From Xanthobacteraceae bacterium (GTDB lineage: Bacteria; Pseudomonadota; Alphaproteobacteria; Rhizobiales; Xanthobacteraceae): a stretch of 64,000 nt of DNA. The notes beneath the pieces are model-generated. The model saw only the letters and a list, made by a program, of their open reading frames with translations. It had not been told where the DNA came from and made no database searches. The DNA is taken from NCBI GenBank assembly GCA_019635585.1, contig JAHBZE010000001.1:1364001-1428000 (forward strand), read 5' to 3'. Of the stretch, positions 31,358-41,729 are shown in pieces (positions within the stretch are counted from its first letter, which is position 1; the number at the start of each line of letters is the position of its first letter). The translations under genes and the position numbers were made by a program.

Positions 31358-34270
31358 GTGGCAACCAACAAGAATTTCTTAGGCGAACTTTTTCAGACCA
31401 TCTCCGACCGCGGACGGGAACTGCTCGCGCGTGCGCGCGGACGCGCGCGTCCTGCGGGAGAAACCCGCACCGAAAATCTGGTCGAACTTTGCGAACATCT
31501 TCTGTCCGGACGCGGCGAGGCGTCTGGCGTGGCGCTCGCCGCCGAAATTCTCGACGCCTATCGCGAACTGAAAACCGGCGAGCGCGTGGCCTTCTTCGAG
31601 GCACTCGCGCATCGCTTCGGCCCGGACCGCGAAAAGCTCAAGCAGGCGGCGGCGCAATATCTGAAAGCCGACAACGAAGAGGCAGAGGCCGCGCTTCACG
31701 AAGCGAGCGAGCCACGGCGGCAGGAAATCGTGCGCCGGCTCAATCTCGCGCCCGACGGCACCGAGACGCTGGTTGCCATGCGCGCGCATCTGATCGATGC
31801 GCTACAGCGCCGCTCCGATCTCGCGGCGGTGGATCGCGACTTCGTGCATCTGTTCGGCTCGTGGTTCAATCGCGGCTTCCTGGTGTTGCGGCGGATCGAC
31901 TGGTCTTCGCCCGCGATCGTGCTCGAAAAAATCATCCGCTACGAGGCGGTGCACGAGATTCGCGGCTGGGACGATCTGCGCGCCCGCATCGACCCGCCCG
32001 ACCGGCGCTGCTACGCCTTCTTCCATCCCGCTCTCGTCGACGAGCCGTTGATTTTCGTCGAGGTCGCGCTGACCAAGGAAATTCCGCGCGCGATCGAGCC
32101 GATCCTTGCGCGCGGACGAAAGCCGCTCGATCCGCGTGAAGCGATGACTGCCGTATTCTATTCCATTTCGAATACGCAACGCGGACTTGCCGGGGTTTCG
32201 TTCGGCAGCTTTCTGATCAAGCAGGTAGCGGAAGAAATTTCGCGTGAGTTTCCGAAGCTCGAAACCTTCGTGACGCTTTCGCCCGTGCCGGGCTTCGCGA
32301 AATGGCTCGCGCGCGAGCGCAAGAACGAGGCGTCCACCGCGATCCACGATTCCGATCGCGCCGCGCTCGCACTGCTCGACCAGCCCGGCTGGGAGCAGGA
32401 CGAAAACAACCGCAACATGCTCGCGGGTCCGCTCTCCGCGCTTGCCGCGCATTATTTTCTGCAGGCCAAGACGAGCTACGGGCGGCCGCTCGACCCAGTC
32501 GCACGGTTCCACCTTGGCAACGGCGCGATGCTCGCGCATATCCATGCCAATGCAGACCTGTCGCCACGCGGCATCGCACAATCGCACGGCGTCATGGTGA
32601 ACTACCGCTACGATCTCTCCGAGATCGAGAAGAACCACGAAGCCTATGCCGAAGCCGGTGAAGTCGTCGCCGGCAAGGAGGTCCGCAAACTCCTGCGGCC
32701 CTCGCAGACGCCGCGACCCGTAATCCAGAGACTGCCTGCAATGAATAACGCCAATTACCTCTTCTCCGCGCTCGAAGCCGCGATCCCCTCGCGCGAAAAG
32801 ACTTTAATCGAATTGCCGGACGGCAAGACTTTTTCCTATGGCGAGGTGTTCGATCTTGCCGCGAAAATCTCCTCGCACCTGATCCGGCTTGGCGTGGTGC
32901 CGGGCGACCGCGTCGCGGTGCAGGTCGAGAAGTCCTGGCAGAATCTCGCGCTCTATCTCGGCGTGGTGCGCGCGGGTGGCGTCTATCTGCCGCTGAACAC
33001 GGCCTACCCGCTCGCCGAACTCGAATATTTTCTGGGTGATGCCGAGCCGCGCGTCGTCGTCTGCAAGCCGGAAACCGAAAGCGGCATCCGGCCGCTAGCG
33101 CAAAAACTGAAGATTTCCGCGGTCGAAACGCTCGGCACGAGCGGCGACGGCTCGCTGCTCGCGAATGCCAAGGATGCGCCTGCTGCCGCACCGGTCGCGC
33201 GCGGAGCCAAGGACCTTGCTGCCATTCTTTATACGTCCGGCACCACCGGCCGCTCGAAGGGTGCGATGCTTTCGCACGACAATCTGCTTTCGAACGCAAA
33301 GACGCTGAAGGATTATTGGCGCTTCACCGCGGATGACGTGCTTCTGCACGCGTTGCCGATCTATCACACCCACGGCCTGTTCGTGGCGATGAACGTGGTG
33401 CTGCTTTCCGGCGCGTCGATGATCTTCTTCGCCAAGTTCGACGCCGAGGAAATGATCCGCCTGATGCCGAAGGCGACCTCGATGATGGGCGTACCGACCT
33501 TCTATGTACGCTTCGCCGATCATCCGAAGGTTACGAAAGATGCGACGAAACATATGCGTCTCTTCATCTCAGGTTCGGCACCATTGCTTGCCGAAACGCA
33601 TCGCGCGTTTTCCGAGAAGACGGGATACGCAATCCTCGAGCGCTACGGCATGACCGAAACCAACATGAATACGTCGAACCCCTATGACGGCGACCGGATT
33701 CCCGGCACGGTCGGCCTTCCGCTGCCGGGCGTCGAATTGCGTGTCGCAGACCCTGAAAGCGGCAAGGTGCTCGCGCAGGGCGAAATCGGCGTGATCGAAG
33801 TGAAAGGGCCGAACGTATTTCAGGGCTACTGGCGGATGCCGGAGAAAACCGCCGCCGAATTCCGCACGGACGGCTTCTTCATCACCGGCGACCTCGGCAA
33901 GATCGACGAGCGCGGCTATGTCCACATAGTCGGGCGCGGCAAGGACCTCGTGATTTCCGGCGGCTTCAACGTCTATCCGAAGGAAGTCGAGAGCGAGATC
34001 GATGCGATACCCGGCGTCGTGGAATCCGCAGTGATCGGCGTCGCGCATCCCGATCTCGGCGAAGGCGTCACAGCGGTCGTCGTGCGGGCAAAAGACGCTT
34101 CCGTGTCGGAAGCCGACATTCTAGGCGCGCTCGAAGGGCGGCTCGCCCGTTTCAAGCAGCCGAAGCGCGTGTTTTTCGTCGACGACCTGCCGCGCAACGC
34201 TATGGGCAAGGTGCAGAAAAACGTGCTCCGCGACACCTACGCCAAGACCTATTCGAAAAACGTTGCGTAG
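31358..34270 (+). CDS. malonyl-CoA decarboxylase / malonyl-CoA synthetase fusion (MatA-MatB)
   Basis: One uninterrupted 970-residue frame from the GTG at 31358. Residues 1 to about 445 are malonyl-CoA decarboxylase: helical N-domain, then the catalytic domain with SISNTQRGLAG (Ser269/Ser271 region) and the active-site His410 in QSHGVMVNYRY. A 15-20-residue linker leads to Met462 (MNNANYLFSALE), the usual start of MatB, and residues 462-970 are a complete AMP-forming ligase with P-loop YTSGTTGRSKG (625-635), YGMTETNMN, the GDLGKIDERGYV region and the Lys in RNAMGKVQK. Together they convert malonate to malonyl-CoA and then acetyl-CoA plus CO2. MatA and MatB are separate genes in Rhizobium. No ribosome site is visible before Met462, so a single polypeptide is expected. 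Confidence 0.92.
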   Translation: MATNKNFLGELFQTISDRGRELLARARGRARPAGETRTENLVELCEHLLSGRGEASGVALAAEILDAYRELKTGERVAFFEALAHRFGPDREKLKQAAAQYLKADNEEAEAALHEASEPRRQEIVRRLNLAPDGTETLVAMRAHLIDALQRRSDLAAVDRDFVHLFGSWFNRGFLVLRRIDWSSPAIVLEKIIRYEAVHEIRGWDDLRARIDPPDRRCYAFFHPALVDEPLIFVEVALTKEIPRAIEPILARGRKPLDPREAMTAVFYSISNTQRGLAGVSFGSFLIKQVAEEISREFPKLETFVTLSPVPGFAKWLARERKNEASTAIHDSDRAALALLDQPGWEQDENNRNMLAGPLSALAAHYFLQAKTSYGRPLDPVARFHLGNGAMLAHIHANADLSPRGIAQSHGVMVNYRYDLSEIEKNHEAYAEAGEVVAGKEVRKLLRPSQTPRPVIQRLPAMNNANYLFSALEAAIPSREKTLIELPDGKTFSYGEVFDLAAKISSHLIRLGVVPGDRVAVQVEKSWQNLALYLGVVRAGGVYLPLNTAYPLAELEYFLGDAEPRVVVCKPETESGIRPLAQKLKISAVETLGTSGDGSLLANAKDAPAAAPVARGAKDLAAILYTSGTTGRSKGAMLSHDNLLSNAKTLKDYWRFTADDVLLHALPIYHTHGLFVAMNVVLLSGASMIFFAKFDAEEMIRLMPKATSMMGVPTFYVRFADHPKVTKDATKHMRLFISGSAPLLAETHRAFSEKTGYAILERYGMTETNMNTSNPYDGDRIPGTVGLPLPGVELRVADPESGKVLAQGEIGVIEVKGPNVFQGYWRMPEKTAAEFRTDGFFITGDLGKIDERGYVHIVGRGKDLVISGGFNVYPKEVESEIDAIPGVVESAVIGVAHPDLGEGVTAVVVRAKDASVSEADILGALEGRLARFKQPKRVFFVDDLPRNAMGKVQKNVLRDTYAKTYSKNVA

Positions 34271-34287: not shown

Positions 34288-35607
34288 CTACATGTGCGAC
34301 GGCAGCCAGGTCGCAAGCGCCGGGAACGCGACGATAATCAGAAGCCGGATAATGTCGGTGATGATGAACGGCAGCACGCCGTAGAAGATCGTCGATATAC
34401 TGACGCGCTCGATCACGCTTTTTATCACGAAGATATTCATGCCGACCGGCGGGTGAATCAGTCCGAGTTCGACCGTCATCACGATGATGACGCCGAACCA
34501 GATCGGATCGAAGCCGAGCGACTGGATTACCGGGAAGATGATCGGCACCGTCAGGATGATCATCGCGAGTGCATCCATCAGGCAGCCAAGCACGAGATAC
34601 ATCAAGAGAATCAGGAACAGCACGCCGTAGGGACCGACGCCAAGCCCGGTGAGGAAAGCCGTCACCTTCTGCGGCGTCTGCGTGATCGTCAGGAAATAGC
34701 CGAACAGCATCGCGCCGATCAGAATCGTGAACACGGCGGCGGTGGTGCGCGTCGCCTCGAGCAGCGAACGCAAAATGTCGGCGCGCGAAAGCCGGCCGCG
34801 CGCAACGCCGATGATGAAGGCGCCGGCCGCACCCATACCGGCTGCTTCGGTCGCGGTGAATTTCGGAAGGAACGGCAGGCCGTAAAGCCCGCCGAGCACG
34901 AAGGCGAACAGCAACAGCGTAGCCCAGATGTGTTTCAGTGCTGCGAAACGCTCGCTCCAGGACGCGCGCGGACCGGCGGGCAGAAAATCCGGGCGCACAT
35001 AGCTGATGATCGTGATCGTCAGCATGTACATGGAGACGGCGAGAATGCCGGGAACGATGCCCGCGATGAACAGCTTGGCGATGTCCTGTTCGGTGATTAG
35101 ACCATAGACCGCGAGCACCGTGGACGGCGGGATCATGATGCCGAGCGTGCCGCCTGCCGCGATCACGCCCGTCGAAAACGAATCCGGATAGCCGAAGCGT
35201 TTCATCTCCGGATAGGCGACCTTGGAGAAGGTCGCGGCGGTCGCAACCGAGGAGCCGCAGATCGCGGCGAAGCCGCCGCAGGCCGCGATCGTCGCAATCC
35301 CTAAGCCCCCACGCAGGTGGCCTAGAAAGGAATTCGCCGCGCGAAAGAGTTCGCGGCTCATGCCGGAGGTGGTTGCGAAGGCTCCCATGAGAAGGAATAA
35401 CGGCACCACCGCGAAGTTCCAGTCGGTCACCGTGCGCATCGTGGTGTGGCCGACGATCTTGAGCGCGGGGCCGGCGGCAGTGAGGTAGCCGAAGCCCGCA
35501 ACGCCGACCAAGCCCATCGCCATGCCGATCGGCACACGAAGCAGCATCAGTGCAAACAGGATGACAAAGCCGGCGATGGCGACGCCATCGGGCCCAAGCA
35601 CAGGCAT
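34288..35607 (-). CDS. TRAP transporter large permease (DctM-type)
   Basis: 439 residues with about twelve hydrophobic helices and the DctM marks RVPIGMAMGLVG, VPLFLLMGAFATTSGMSREL and PPSTVLAVYGLI. It is the ion-coupled channel subunit of a TRAP carrier that uses the DctP protein encoded upstream. It follows the small subunit after 3 bases. It ends 17 bases from the convergent malonyl-CoA fusion gene. The malonate TRAP carrier MatPQM of Sinorhizobium is a precedent, so malonate is a reasonable but unproven substrate. Confidence 0.92.
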   Translation of the reverse strand: MPVLGPDGVAIAGFVILFALMLLRVPIGMAMGLVGVAGFGYLTAAGPALKIVGHTTMRTVTDWNFAVVPLFLLMGAFATTSGMSRELFRAANSFLGHLRGGLGIATIAACGGFAAICGSSVATAATFSKVAYPEMKRFGYPDSFSTGVIAAGGTLGIMIPPSTVLAVYGLITEQDIAKLFIAGIVPGILAVSMYMLTITIISYVRPDFLPAGPRASWSERFAALKHIWATLLLFAFVLGGLYGLPFLPKFTATEAAGMGAAGAFIIGVARGRLSRADILRSLLEATRTTAAVFTILIGAMLFGYFLTITQTPQKVTAFLTGLGVGPYGVLFLILLMYLVLGCLMDALAMIILTVPIIFPVIQSLGFDPIWFGVIIVMTVELGLIHPPVGMNIFVIKSVIERVSISTIFYGVLPFIITDIIRLLIIVAFPALATWLPSHM

Positions 35608-35610
35608 CTC

Positions 35611-36126
35611 TTACTCCGCAGTATTCATGGCGTCGGGCGGCGGCGCGATCAGATTCGGATGGAAGATGAGGCGATAGGTTCGTACCGCGATCAGCAGTAC
35701 CGCCGCCGCATCGCCGAGCCAGGCGAGTAGAAAGAACGGCCAATGCGGGATACGCAGGCCGAAGGTCTGCACGTTCGCAGCATAGGTCGTCGTCACCTTA
35801 TCGAACAGAGTGTAGGTCTGCACGGCAACGACGAACAGGAGCACCAGTGTCGCGAAGACGTCGATCACGCGCTGCCAGTTCTTGCTCACGTTGGCCCAGA
35901 TCAGATCGACGGTGATGTGCGTGCCGCGATAGGAGGTCGCGGCGATCCCCCAGAAAATCAGAATGCCAAGCAGCAACTGGCCGAATTCGTAACCGTCGGG
36001 AAGATCTATCGAGAACAGATTTCGCAGCATCACCGAGGCGAAGACGAGCAGCGCCACGACGCCGATGAAGATCGCAGCGACCCACTCGATCCCGTCGATG
36101 AAACGGTCCATCGCGTTGCGTTTCAA
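35611..36126 (-). CDS. TRAP transporter small permease (DctQ-type)
   Basis: About 171 residues with four membrane helices and the DctQ motifs DGIEWVAAIFIGVVALLVF and GYEFGQLLLGILIFWGI. The frame begins at a TTG at 36126 preceded by GGGGGA; the ATG at 36111 is the alternative and would give 166 residues. It associates with the large permease in the inner membrane. A terminator-like hairpin separates it from the binding protein gene. Confidence 0.9.
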   Translation of the reverse strand: MKRNAMDRFIDGIEWVAAIFIGVVALLVFASVMLRNLFSIDLPDGYEFGQLLLGILIFWGIAATSYRGTHITVDLIWANVSKNWQRVIDVFATLVLLFVVAVQTYTLFDKVTTTYAANVQTFGLRIPHWPFFLLAWLGDAAAVLLIAVRTYRLIFHPNLIAPPPDAMNTAE

Positions 36127-36148
36127 GAAATCCCCCGGGCGAACTTTG

Positions 36149-36180
36149 GAAAAACGGCGGCGGAAAAATCCGCCGCCGTT
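36149..36180 (-). terminator. attenuator-like hairpin between the TRAP binding protein and permease genes
   Basis: Read on the minus strand, AACGGCGGCGG pairs exactly with CCGCCGCCGTT across ATTTTT, followed by TTTTCC. It lies 18 bases past the binding-protein stop and would let that gene be expressed above the two permeases. Confidence 0.75.
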
Positions 36181-36198
36181 CGATCAGATGACGGCGTT

Positions 36199-37221
36199 TC
36201 AGTACGCCGCCTTATACTTCGCGAGCGATTCCTTCAGCTCTTTCATCGCGGTTGCCGGATCGACGCCAGCCTTGGTAACGCCTTCGGCCCAGGCCTTTTC
36301 GAGCGGCTCGGCGGCCTTGCGCCACTGCGCAAGCTGGTCGGCGGAGATCGAATAGACCTCATGGCCGGCGGCAGCTTTCAGCTTGGCGCGGCCGCCGAAC
36401 TCATAGTCGGCCCAGGGGCCGGCAACTTTCAGCGCCCATTCGGTCGAGCAGTGATCGTCGATGATCTTCTTCTGATTCGCCGACATCTGCTCATAGACCG
36501 CCTTGTTCATGACCCACGCAAAGGTCGTGGCGTAAAGCGGAACATCCATATGGTACTTCGTGACGCTGTCGATTTTGAACAGAAGGATCGAACCCCAGGG
36601 GAACGTCACCGCGTCCGCGACGCCCTTCTCGAGGATGTCACGCACTTCCGGCGCCGAGGACTGCACGTTGGTGCCGCCGAGCAGAGTCACGAACTGGCCC
36701 ATGGTCGCGTGCGCAGGACGGATCTTCATGCCCTTGATGTCGCCCGGCACCATGACCTTCTTGTTCACGGAGTGGATTGCGCCGGGATCGTGCACGAAGG
36801 CGAGACAGAACTTGACGTCCTTCATCTCCTTCGCTGCGTACTTGCGATACCAGGCGTCGAGCGCCTGCGAGCCGCCTTTGCCGTTCGCAATCAGGAACGG
36901 CAGTTCGCCAGCGGCGATGACGGGAAAGCGGCCGGGCTGATAACCGGGATTGATATAGGTGACATCGGCAATGCCGTCGCGCGCCATATCATAGTGGTCG
37001 AACGCCTTGCCGAGCTGCTGAGCGGGAAATACCGAGAAGGTGATGGTGCCGTTCGACGCTTTCTGAATCGACGCACCCCACTCCTCCATCGCCTTCTGCA
37101 ACGGATGCGAAGGCGGAACCCAGTGGGACAATTTCAGGTGAAAGCTCTTCTCTTGTGCGACCGCGGAGCCAGCAATGCCGAAGGCAAGCAAGGCCCCGAG
37201 CGCACACGCGCGCAACTTCAT
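36199..37221 (-). CDS. TRAP transporter substrate-binding protein (DctP-type)
   Basis: 340 residues with signal peptide (MKLRACALGALLAFGIAGSA, cleaved near VAQ at about residue 22). GGGAGG lies before the ATG. The DctP fold shows LKLSHWVPPSHPLQKAMEEW, KGMKIRPAHATMG (the Arg that usually grips a carboxylate) and VADAVTFPWGSIL. It captures an organic acid in the periplasm and hands it to the DctQM permease. The ligand is uncertain: malonate is suggested by the facing MatAB fusion, but the divergent MarR-ior operon could equally mean an aryl-pyruvate or related acid. Confidence 0.92.
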   Translation of the reverse strand: MKLRACALGALLAFGIAGSAVAQEKSFHLKLSHWVPPSHPLQKAMEEWGASIQKASNGTITFSVFPAQQLGKAFDHYDMARDGIADVTYINPGYQPGRFPVIAAGELPFLIANGKGGSQALDAWYRKYAAKEMKDVKFCLAFVHDPGAIHSVNKKVMVPGDIKGMKIRPAHATMGQFVTLLGGTNVQSSAPEVRDILEKGVADAVTFPWGSILLFKIDSVTKYHMDVPLYATTFAWVMNKAVYEQMSANQKKIIDDHCSTEWALKVAGPWADYEFGGRAKLKAAAGHEVYSISADQLAQWRKAAEPLEKAWAEGVTKAGVDPATAMKELKESLAKYKAAY

Positions 37222-37517: not shown

Positions 37518-38030
37518 ATGAAACAAGACGCACTCTCCCGCAGCGCGGAAACCGACAGCGCTTCGCAACGCAAAGGTGCCGCAAACGAAAACGTGGATTT
37601 CGGGCCGCTCGCAAACTGGGTCGGCTTTCATTTGCGCCTCGCGCAGACCGCGAGCTTTCAGGCCTTCGTCGCGGAAGCGCGGGAGATCGATCTCAGCCCC
37701 GGACGCTTCGCGACGTTGATGCTGATCGGGCGCAATCCCGGCATCAGTCAGACCGCGCTCGCGGTCGCCAACGGCCGGGACAAGTCGACGTTGACGCCGA
37801 TCCTCGAAGATCTCGAGCGGCGCGGATTCATCCTGCGCGAGAAACTGAAGACCGACCGGCGGAGTTATCAACTCACGCTGACCGACACAGGCAAGAAGAT
37901 GCTGGAGCAACTCACCGCCTGCGCGAAGCGGCACGACGACAATCTCGATCGCATCATCGGCGTAAAAGACCGCGCGAAGTTCATCAAGATTTTGCAGAAG
38001 ATCACCGCCGAAATCGGCCACGACGACTGA
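37518..38030 (+). CDS. MarR-family transcriptional regulator (ior locus)
   Basis: 170 residues: an N-terminal tail of about 30 residues, then the winged helix with NPGISQTALAVANGRDKSTLTPILEDLERRG split over the recognition region and the wing KTDRRSYQLTLTDTG. MarR proteins are dimeric repressors released by small aromatic or CoA ligands. It starts the MarR-iorA-iorB-mobA operon (17 bases to iorA) and diverges from the TRAP operon, so it probably controls one or both. Confidence 0.88.
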   Translation: MKQDALSRSAETDSASQRKGAANENVDFGPLANWVGFHLRLAQTASFQAFVAEAREIDLSPGRFATLMLIGRNPGISQTALAVANGRDKSTLTPILEDLERRGFILREKLKTDRRSYQLTLTDTGKKMLEQLTACAKRHDDNLDRIIGVKDRAKFIKILQKITAEIGHDD

Positions 38031-38047
38031 ACGGATGAAAGCTGACC

Positions 38048-40210
38048 ATGGCCGAAGTCTCGTTCCATAGCGAGATCAAGAGTCTCACGCTCAGTAGCGG
38101 CGACACCTTTCGCGGCGAAGGCATTCTCGCGGTCACGAAGGCGCTGCTGCAATCGGGCGTCGCTTATGTCGGCGGCTATCAGGGCGCACCGGTCAGTCAT
38201 CTGCTCGACGTGCTGGTGCAATCCGAAGACTTGCTTTCCGAACTCGGCGTACATCTGGAAACCTGCACCAACGAGGCGGCTGCGGCGGCAATGCTCGGCG
38301 CTTCGATCAATTATCCGCTGCGCGGCGCAGTGACGTGGAAATCCATCGTCGGCACCAATGTCGCGGCCGATGCGCTTTCCAATCTCGCATCCGCCGGTGT
38401 GATTGGCGGCGCGCTGATCGTGATCGGCGAAGACTATGGCGAGGGCGCGAGCGTCATTCAGGAACGCACGCATGCTTTCGCGCTGAAGTCGTCGCTGTGG
38501 CTGCTCGATCCCCGCCCCAACCTTCCGACCATCGTGCGTATGGTGGAAAAAGGCTTCGAGCTTTCGGAGGCGAGCAATACGCCGGTGATGCTCGAACTGC
38601 GCATCCGCGCCTGCCATGTCTATGGCTCGTTCGATGCCAAAGATAACGTTGCCGCGAAATTCTCCGCGAAGCACAAAATCCCTTCGCCCGCCGTGTTCGA
38701 ATACGACCGGCTGAGCCATCCGCCTGCGACTTTCGTGCAGGAAAAGCACAAGATGGAACAGCGCCTGCCCAAGGCGCAGAAATTCATCCTCGAGCACAAG
38801 CTCAACGAGGTTTTCGGCCCCGAGAACGGCGATACCGGCATCATCGTGCAGGGCGGGCTCTTCAACGTGCTGAACGGGCGGCTCGCGCTCGCAGGACTTT
38901 CTGATTCTTTCGGCAATATGAAAGTGCCGACGCTGGTACTGAACGTCACCCACCCGCTCGTGCCCGAACAGATCGTGAAATTCTGCGCAGGCAAGAAGTC
39001 GGTGCTGATCGTCGAGGAAGGCAATCCCGAGTTCATCGAGCAGGCGGTCGGCCAGATTCTCCGCAAAGCCGTTCTGAACACGAAAATCTTCGGCAAAGAC
39101 GTGCTGCCTTCGGCGGGCGAATATACTCCGCTTGTGATTGCACGCGGGCTCACGAAATTTCTTGAGGCAAACGGCAGCAAAGCTCCCGCGCTGACGGACT
39201 GGATCGCGCAGACGGACGCGCATCAAAAGGAAATCGACGGCGCACTCGGCAGTCCGCTGCCGCCGCGCCCACCGACCTTCTGTACCGGCTGCCCGGAGCG
39301 CCCAGTGTTCTCGGCGATGAAGCTATTAAAGCAGGAAATGGGTCCGGTGCATGTCGCCGCCGACATCGGTTGCCATGCGTTCGGTACCTTCGCGCCTTTC
39401 AGCCAAGGCAACTCCATTCTCGGCTACGGTATGTCGCTCGCATCCGCCGCGGCCGTTTCCGGCACGCAAAAGCAGCGACCGGTTTCGATCATGGGCGACG
39501 GCGGCTTCTGGCATAACGGCTTGCTTTCGGGTGTCGCGGGCGCGGTCTTCAATAAAGACGACTCCGTGCTCGTCATCATGAACAACGGCTATTCCAGCGC
39601 GACCGGCTTGCAGGACATTCCCTCGAGCGCGCCGGAAAAGGACGGCCGCGGCAACGGCTTAGAGATCGAAAGCACGCTGAAAAGTCTCGGGGTGCCGTGG
39701 GTGAAGCGGCAGCGCACTTACGGCGTCGAAGGCATGATGAATACGCTGCGCGATGCGCTGACTTCGGACAAAAAAGGTTTGAAGGTCGTGATCGCCGACG
39801 GCGAATGCCAGCTTGCGCGGCAACGCCGCGTGAAGCCGGCGTTTGCGCGGCTGAAGAACGAAGGCAAGCGCGTCGAGCGCACGCGCTTCTGGGTCGATCC
39901 GGACGTCTGTACCGGCGACCATTCCTGCATCCGCCTTTCCGGTTGTCCATCACTGACAATCAAGCCGAACGAAGACCCGTTGCGTCCTGACCCGATCGCG
40001 CACGTCAATAACGACTGCGTCGGCTGCGGGCTTTGCGGCGAAGTCGCGCATGCCGCGCAGCTTTGCCCATCGTTTGCCGAAATCAAGGTGATCGAAAATC
40101 CGAACATCCTCGACCGGCTCAAGCATCGCATCTCATCCGCGCTGATCCGGCTCATGGGCGGCAATTCGGGCGGCAGCGGCAAGGCGCCGATGCCGGTGCC
40201 TGCGGAATAG
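38048..40210 (+). CDS. iorA: indolepyruvate ferredoxin oxidoreductase, alpha subunit
   Basis: 720 residues, organised as in archaeal IorA. The pyrimidine-binding domain comes first (YVGGYQGAPVSHLLDVL), then the TPP domain with the Cys motif TFCTGCPERPVF near 414 and the Mg-TPP loop MGDGGFWHNGLLSGVAGA. A C-terminal ferredoxin-like segment follows with VCTGDHSCIRLSGC and NDCVGCGLCG. It oxidatively decarboxylates indolepyruvate and other aryl-pyruvates to the acyl-CoA with electrons going to ferredoxin. The substrate range in this organism is not known. Confidence 0.92.
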   Translation: MAEVSFHSEIKSLTLSSGDTFRGEGILAVTKALLQSGVAYVGGYQGAPVSHLLDVLVQSEDLLSELGVHLETCTNEAAAAAMLGASINYPLRGAVTWKSIVGTNVAADALSNLASAGVIGGALIVIGEDYGEGASVIQERTHAFALKSSLWLLDPRPNLPTIVRMVEKGFELSEASNTPVMLELRIRACHVYGSFDAKDNVAAKFSAKHKIPSPAVFEYDRLSHPPATFVQEKHKMEQRLPKAQKFILEHKLNEVFGPENGDTGIIVQGGLFNVLNGRLALAGLSDSFGNMKVPTLVLNVTHPLVPEQIVKFCAGKKSVLIVEEGNPEFIEQAVGQILRKAVLNTKIFGKDVLPSAGEYTPLVIARGLTKFLEANGSKAPALTDWIAQTDAHQKEIDGALGSPLPPRPPTFCTGCPERPVFSAMKLLKQEMGPVHVAADIGCHAFGTFAPFSQGNSILGYGMSLASAAAVSGTQKQRPVSIMGDGGFWHNGLLSGVAGAVFNKDDSVLVIMNNGYSSATGLQDIPSSAPEKDGRGNGLEIESTLKSLGVPWVKRQRTYGVEGMMNTLRDALTSDKKGLKVVIADGECQLARQRRVKPAFARLKNEGKRVERTRFWVDPDVCTGDHSCIRLSGCPSLTIKPNEDPLRPDPIAHVNNDCVGCGLCGEVAHAAQLCPSFAEIKVIENPNILDRLKHRISSALIRLMGGNSGGSGKAPMPVPAE

Positions 40211-40214
40211 CGCA

Positions 40215-41729
40215 ATGCAGGATGCTCGCCCGGTTCGTCTTTTAATTGCGGCCCTCGGCGGCGAAGGTGGCGGCGTGCTCGCCTCGTGGATTACAAATGC
40301 GGCAGTTGCTGCGGGTCATGTTGCGCAACGCACGTCCATTCCGGGCGTCGCGCAGCGTACCGGCGCCACCACGTATTATCTCGAGATCGTGCCGGACTCG
40401 GGCAACGGCGAAATGCCCGTGCTCGCGCTGAACCCGGCGCCGGGCGAAGTCGATGTGATGCTGGCCAGCGAGTTGCTGGAGACGACGCGCGCGGTGCAGG
40501 CAGGGTCCATCACGCCTTCGCGCACGCATCTGATCGCCTCCACGCATCGCGTCTTTACGGTCGAGGAAAAGTCGGCGATGGCCGACGGCCGTATCGATCC
40601 GCAGCGGATGCAGAGTGTCCTGCGGCAATTCTCCAAGAGCGCGCTACTTGCCGATCTCGCTGCGACCGCGCGCGGCGCGAACAGCCAGCTCAATGCGGTG
40701 ATGCTCGGCGCGCTTGCCGGCACGAAAGCCCTGCCGATTGCCGACGACTATTTCCGGGCGGCGATTCGCACCGAAGGCAAGGCGATCGACGCCAATCTTC
40801 GCGGCTTCGAGGCGGGGTACGCGCTGGCCGCGCAGGGGAACGCGGCGGAGGAAAGGTCCATGCCAGTGCTTCGCGCACCGCGCGCCGAGAACCAGATCGA
40901 GGCACGCGCGGTTCGCACTCTTCCCCGCGAAGCCGCGGAAATCGCGCTCGAGGGCGTGCGGCGGCTCACGGACTACCAAAACAAGTCCTACGCCGCACTT
41001 TATCTCGACCGGCTCGAGCGCTTCGCGAGAAAGCCGGAAGCGGACTCGAATTTCCTGCGCGAACTTGCACGATTGCTCGCCGTCCGCATGTCGTTCGAAG
41101 ACACGATCCGCGTCGCGCAGCTAAAAATCCGCGAAGGGCGGATCGAGCGGCTGCGCCGCGAATCCGGCACTAGCGAAGGCGCGCTCATCCGCGTCTCCGA
41201 ATTCATGAAACCAGGACCAGAAGAGATTTTCTCGATGCTGCCGCCCTCGCTCGCGCGGCGCATCCTGGCTTGGATCGAGAAGCGCGGCTGGAGCGAGCGT
41301 TCTATCAAGATGAAAGTCTCGACGACGAACGTGTTCGGCTTTCTCCGGTTGCGGCTGCTTTCGGGCCTGCGCTGGTGGCGCCCGCGCACGCTGCGCTTTG
41401 CAGAGGAAAATGCCTGGGCCGAGCGTTGGCTCGATCTTGCCGAGCGCACGCTTGTGCGCGACCCGGAAGCGGCGAAAGCCGTGGTTGCGACCGCCTCGCT
41501 CGTCAAAGGCTATGGCGAGACCATGAAGCGCGGATTGAAGAACTGGAATCTGCTCGCCGATTTCGTGATCGAACCGTTTCTGGAAGGCAAGCTGCCGCGC
41601 GAACAGTTCGCCGATGCGGTGACGCAAGGCCGGATCGCAGCGCTGAAGGATGCCGACGGCAAGCCGCTCGGCGCGCTCATCGAATCCTTGCGCGCGTTGC
41701 CGCGACAGCAGCAGATCGCGGCGGAATGA
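40215..41729 (+). CDS. iorB: indolepyruvate oxidoreductase subunit beta with C-terminal DUF6537-type domain
   Basis: 504 residues. The first 190 form the 2-oxoacid:acceptor oxidoreductase gamma fold (LLIAALGGEGGGVLASWI, IPGVAQRTGATTYYLEI), which is all that archaeal IorB contains. The remaining 300 residues match the helical domain usually fused to proteobacterial indolepyruvate oxidoreductases (DUF6537). It starts 4 bases after iorA and its stop overlaps the mobA start by 4 bases (ATGA), so the three are translationally linked. Confidence 0.9.
   Translation: MQDARPVRLLIAALGGEGGGVLASWITNAAVAAGHVAQRTSIPGVAQRTGATTYYLEIVPDSGNGEMPVLALNPAPGEVDVMLASELLETTRAVQAGSITPSRTHLIASTHRVFTVEEKSAMADGRIDPQRMQSVLRQFSKSALLADLAATARGANSQLNAVMLGALAGTKALPIADDYFRAAIRTEGKAIDANLRGFEAGYALAAQGNAAEERSMPVLRAPRAENQIEARAVRTLPREAAEIALEGVRRLTDYQNKSYAALYLDRLERFARKPEADSNFLRELARLLAVRMSFEDTIRVAQLKIREGRIERLRRESGTSEGALIRVSEFMKPGPEEIFSMLPPSLARRILAWIEKRGWSERSIKMKVSTTNVFGFLRLRLLSGLRWWRPRTLRFAEENAWAERWLDLAERTLVRDPEAAKAVVATASLVKGYGETMKRGLKNWNLLADFVIEPFLEGKLPREQFADAVTQGRIAALKDADGKPLGALIESLRALPRQQQIAAE

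Follow-up and report, generated by a model that had tools for sequence, protein, structure and literature searches.

The fused gene and its neighbours

The window (the whole 64,000-nucleotide stretch of Xanthobacteraceae DNA that was analysed) carries on its forward strand a single 970-residue reading frame in which a complete malonyl-CoA decarboxylase (MatA, or MCD) precedes a likewise complete malonyl-CoA synthetase (MatB). An earlier note on this DNA had claimed this arrangement, and it was borne out by the open reading frame (ORF), Pfam and NCBIfam. The features of the locus, in window positions, are as follows.

31358..34270, + strand: gene for the MCD-MatB fusion, 970 aa, from a GTG start at 31358 to a stop codon at 34268-34270
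31616..31867, + strand: MCD_N helical domain (PF17408), residues 87-170, Pfam match
31874..32614, + strand: MCD catalytic domain (PF05292), GNAT-like, residues 173-419, Pfam match and fold match to 4ksa
32279..32281, + strand: predicted catalytic Ser308 (TLSPVPGF), homologue of R. palustris Ser312 by alignment
32510..32512, + strand: predicted catalytic His385 (FHLGNGA), homologue of R. palustris His389 by alignment
32699..32752, + strand: linker, residues 448-465, probable former MatA tail and MatB start, disordered in the model
32741..32744, + strand: ATGA, probable former matB start codon (Met462) overlapping an out-of-frame TGA
32810..33832, + strand: AMP-binding domain of MatB (PF00501), residues 485-825, P-loop 625-635
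33983..34210, + strand: AMP-binding_C domain (PF13193), residues 876-951, with Lys951
34288..37221, - strand: convergent genes of a DctM-DctQ-DctP TRAP transporter, DctP at 36199-37221, with a possible role in malonate uptake

All four Pfam domains scored above their cut-offs, the two MCD domains with 348.5 and 103.3 bits (PF05292 and PF17408, respectively), and the MatB half matched the NCBIfam model NF005702, malonyl-CoA synthase, with 844.4 bits, where the cut-off is 558. The motif YTSGTTGRSKG at residue 625 and the Met at residue 462, both reported earlier, were confirmed in the translation. The nearest solved structures, by sequence and by fold, were the MatB and MCD of R. palustris. Among the matches listed, the genome of the window had one MCD match.

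TRAP genes adjoin the fused gene in three of the eight genomes of the genus (G000, G007, G005) and were not found in the 2.1-12.6 kb of downstream sequence seen in the remaining five (G006, G002, G003, G004, G001). A DctM homologue (35-41%) was observed near the split loci L041, L042, L043 and L097, with little flank seen at L091. The accessible part of one account of mat operons (PMC5237526) describes matABC of Rhizobium leguminosarum bv. trifolii and matPQMAB of Sinorhizobium meliloti, and by analogy with matPQM of the latter the TRAP transporter of the window may take up malonate. Farther along, positions 37518-41729 hold a gene for a MarR-type regulator, then IorA- and IorB-like indolepyruvate ferredoxin oxidoreductase genes.

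Catalytic residues

In the accessible part of Froese et al., the catalytic residues of R. palustris MCD are given as Ser312/His389 (PMC3701320). Their homologues in the fused protein, Ser308 and His385, were kept in all 40 MCD rows of our alignment (A1). The earlier note had named His410 (QSHGVMVN) as catalytic, a claim that did not hold: homology to the published residues points to a Ser308/His385 dyad, while column 410 contained His in only 24 of the 40 rows, the aligned human residue being Cys. Within the MatB half, both the P-loop (625-635) and Lys951 are present. The checked P-loop columns were identical in 40 of 40 MatB rows, column 633 alone being variable, and Lys951, which we take to be the C-terminal catalytic Lys of this enzyme class, was likewise found in all 40.

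Conservation of the join within the genus

MatA and MatB were observed in one ORF in six of the eight genomes of the genus (G000, G007, G006, G002, G005, G003). The fused ORF was full in five of these, and in G003 it was seen from residue 226, where the contig starts, to the end. In G004 a contig end cuts the match, so that it is seen only from residue 495 on and the junction is hidden. The last genome (G001, one contig) has MatB (82%) directly after the upstream gene common to the genus, with no MCD match among the matches listed.

Pairwise dN/dS within the genus was 0.07-0.19 for the MCD half (222 MCD codons used in pairs with G003) and 0.05-0.11 for the MatB half; for the linker, pairwise dN was 0.05-0.64, and some pairs gave no defined dS. 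By these measures both halves are under purifying selection, with a linker that drifts in its letters and keeps its length. The linker measured 18 residues in all six fused genes, with three invariant columns of the 18 (Arg453, Arg458 and Met462). The ATGA was also kept in six of six, and its TGA, out of frame here, serves as the matA stop in several of the split relatives.

Distribution and repeated origin

The earlier statement that matA and matB are usually separate genes agrees with our survey of 79 named loci: 46 had both genes in separate frames and five, all of this genus, were fused, while the other 28 had MatB without MatA in the stretch seen (one of them truncated where its contig ends). 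A search of the order (397 genomes) gave stop-free full-length matches, among the matches listed, in at least G000, G716, G691 and G727; G555 (family f34) gave a partial match and is nevertheless fused. Searches of the class (385 genomes) and phylum (398 genomes), which overlap with each other and with that of the order, gave no further stop-free full-length match beyond the window's own among matches below 1e-170, a threshold at which more distant fusions could be missed. Beyond the genus of the window, fused proteins with MCD and then AMP-binding were found in the genus f35/g165 (three genomes) and in G555. Three of the four g165 genomes were fused (G691, G716, G727) and the fourth was without a match under 1e-100. 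In the genus of G555 two of eight genomes had a match, with G555 fused and G617 split. These last two loci (L188/L231), fused in one case and split by TAA then ATG in the other, may represent a very recent fusion. We scanned eight further fused proteins (four of this genus, without G003, three of g165, and G555), and all contained the four Pfam domains in unchanged order.

The fused rows of this genus (five), g165 (three) and G555 (one) were placed apart in quick-method trees of both halves, with 70 rows for MatA and 71 for MatB. Grouping all nine fused rows together was rejected by the AU test (p-AU 7e-6 for MatA, 8e-63 for MatB), as was the smaller grouping of this genus and g165 (p 0.0028 for MatA, 0.0148 for MatB). 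Judged by these trees, the MCD-MatB fusion arose separately at least two times and probably three, the G555 group being one genome. The join is rare and is not unique to the organism of the window. The open-licence papers listed in our literature searches included none that describes a natural fusion of MCD with MatB, which does not imply its absence from print.

Several candidates were rejected. Methylobacterium, Roseibium, Pseudomonas, Salinicola, Halomonas and others had appeared as fusions by match span and proved to have two genes in one frame, separated by a stop. In split relatives such as L055-L083 the stop that parts matA from matB within the frame is TGA, TAG or TAA; one-frame pairs of this type are favoured by the scan from which these loci came. 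Sixteen loci with a long ORF around MatB (13 plus L040, L162 and L182), picked from listings and not comprising every long frame, included none with MatA and MatB in one ORF. At L040 (G016) MatA and MatB lie on the same strand about 1.2 kb apart.

Formation of the fusion

Six split loci of the Xanthobacteraceae group (L041, L042, L043, L050, L091, L097) have the matA stop and matB start overlapping as ATGA. Counted by eye, the distance from a shared Arg codon to the ATGA is 24 nt in six of six fused genes versus 17 nt in the six split relatives, a net difference of +7 that shifts the frame by one; the homology of the Arg codon is our own reading of the alignment output. We infer that the ancestor of most of the genus had an adjacent matA-matB pair, its matA stop probably overlapping the matB start as ATGA, and that a slight net shift of frame in the tail of matA would have let translation run beyond the matA stop into matB. 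The ancestral ATGA junction stays an inferred one because other split loci of the same family (L025, L031, L197-L201) are without the overlap. A plain 2-base deletion at the junction was considered and dropped in view of the net +7 from the shared Arg codon, although its effect on the frame would be equal. Set side by side, the fused and split loci illustrate at the level of single bases how two overlapping genes can turn into one.

In the MatB tree G001 was sister to the five fused rows, and therefore either the fusion followed that split or G001 lost its MCD half. When matched to G001, the fused protein aligns from residue 456 onwards, six residues ahead of Met462, a weak hint towards loss. 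With G001 lacking MCD, the malonate pathway is dispensable in the genus. The G001 locus (L039/L216) would itself be a natural loss of the decarboxylase half in a genus-mate.

Proposed function and alternative readings

We think it likely, from the sequence comparisons, that the gene encodes a tethered bifunctional enzyme taking malonate to acetyl-CoA, derived from an adjacent matA-matB pair, with 1:1 production as its likely gain. The C-terminal MatB half would convert malonate, ATP and CoA to malonyl-CoA, and the N-terminal MCD half would convert this to acetyl-CoA and CO2. Malonyl-CoA is a building block of fatty acids, and a malonate-burning bacterium therefore makes a metabolite that it also needs. 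The structural model of the monomer (71-row alignment; mean pLDDT 86.5, pTM 0.55) comprised two well-folded halves on a disordered tether, with residues 451-463 below a pLDDT of 50 and no fixed interface predicted between the domains. Given a short flexible tether, the likely gain of the fusion would be 1:1 production and nearness, not a closed channel.

Adjacent matA-matB pairs with one in-frame stop were common among the loci seen, and a sequencing or assembly error removing such a stop is what the earlier note had feared. That fear is effectively excluded and the probability of an artefact is negligible: the uninterrupted junction occurs in six separately assembled genomes, which refutes an artefact for the genus, the linker is constant in length while its letters and codons differ, and both halves are fully open. 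For G555, a single genome, an artefact is possible. The fusion in the window is thus a genuine, well-kept and selected join of known enzymes, without new chemistry. Whether it yields one product or two turns on Met462, from which internal initiation could release free MatB beside the full fusion and supply extra malonyl-CoA for biosynthesis. Conservation of Met462 and the ATGA in the six fused genes of the genus would fit such a second product, as would the retention of only MatB at the G001 locus. However, Met462 is one of three invariant linker columns and so stands out but not alone, and the earlier observation that it has no visible ribosome site was upheld by anti-SD scoring, with no signal above background (-2.9 kcal/mol, or -5.0 in the G002 gene, where 59 in-frame ATGs inside four genes of the window averaged -2.35 kcal/mol with an sd of 2.23). 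The test is a weak one, since the starts of twelve real or presumed genes in the window spanned -10.0 to +1.7; the split matB starts of relatives scored -1.7 to -6.6. In those relatives matB may need the matA stop for re-initiation, and the fused gene has no in-frame stop there. The Met is also absent in three of three g165 fusions, so that one chain is the only simple reading there. We consider a second product very unlikely in the window.

A modest explanation of the join is co-production with fixed stoichiometry, and the bold one is channelling, in which malonyl-CoA made at the MatB site would reach the MCD site without entering the fatty-acid pool. Several points would favour a channel: a single chain holds consecutive reactions, fusion occurred on more than one occasion with MCD always first, and linker length is fixed in the genus. 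The MCD-MatB order is, however, the gene order of split operons and hence uninformative, and the private passage of malonyl-CoA suggested in the earlier note found no support in the disordered linker, the pTM of 0.55 and the lack of a predicted domain interface, all from a model of the monomer only. Natural CM-CDT fusions are also known that, in the part of the report available, have neither structural nor kinetic channelling (PMC10520331). Channelling is accordingly, in our estimate, quite unlikely. R. palustris MCD is described as a tetramer in solution in the accessible part of PMC3701320, and by analogy a tetramer of the fusion protein, with four MatB domains attached, is plausible. On this basis one could propose that Hyphomicrobiales repeatedly select the fusion, the chain on the MCD tetramer shielding malonyl-CoA from fatty-acid synthesis through proximity channelling, with the split sister species as controls; we regard this broader proposal as unlikely.

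The tethered enzyme producing both activities 1:1 remains our preferred reading, with the activity of the fused chain, the mutational path and the benefit of fusion as its conditional parts. Domain content, catalytic residues, conservation and selection all support a single chain with both enzymes. A maker and a destroyer of malonyl-CoA have been fused in at least two lineages with close split relatives, which gives matched natural pairs. Such pairs let one ask what is gained by fusing consecutive enzymes, whether stoichiometry, nearness or channelling.

Comparison with known systems

The chemistry of both steps is already known, and the join in one chain is what differs. The natural CM-CDT fusions resemble MCD-MatB as a rare join of two consecutive enzymes in few bacteria; unlike MCD-MatB they belong to another pathway and are exported, and in the part of the report available channelling was tested in them and none was found (PMC10520331). 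The g165 fusions share the architecture and Pfam domain order of the window's protein, but their linkers have 12-15 residues and no internal Met, against 18 residues with Met462 in the genus of the window. The MCD half aligned over its whole length to R. palustris MCD (4ksa; Foldseek identity 56-59%) and the MatB half, also over its whole length, to R. palustris MatB (4fuq/4fut; Foldseek identity 66%), an identity that suggests that the MatB half is malonate-specific. In R. palustris the two are separate proteins with separate entries, whereas in the window they are one chain. The mat operons of R. leguminosarum and S. meliloti, as far as they are covered in the accessible part of PMC5237526, share with the window both enzymes and the MatA-MatB order, and in the window TRAP genes lie near; there the enzymes are encoded by two separate genes, while the window joins them in one chain.
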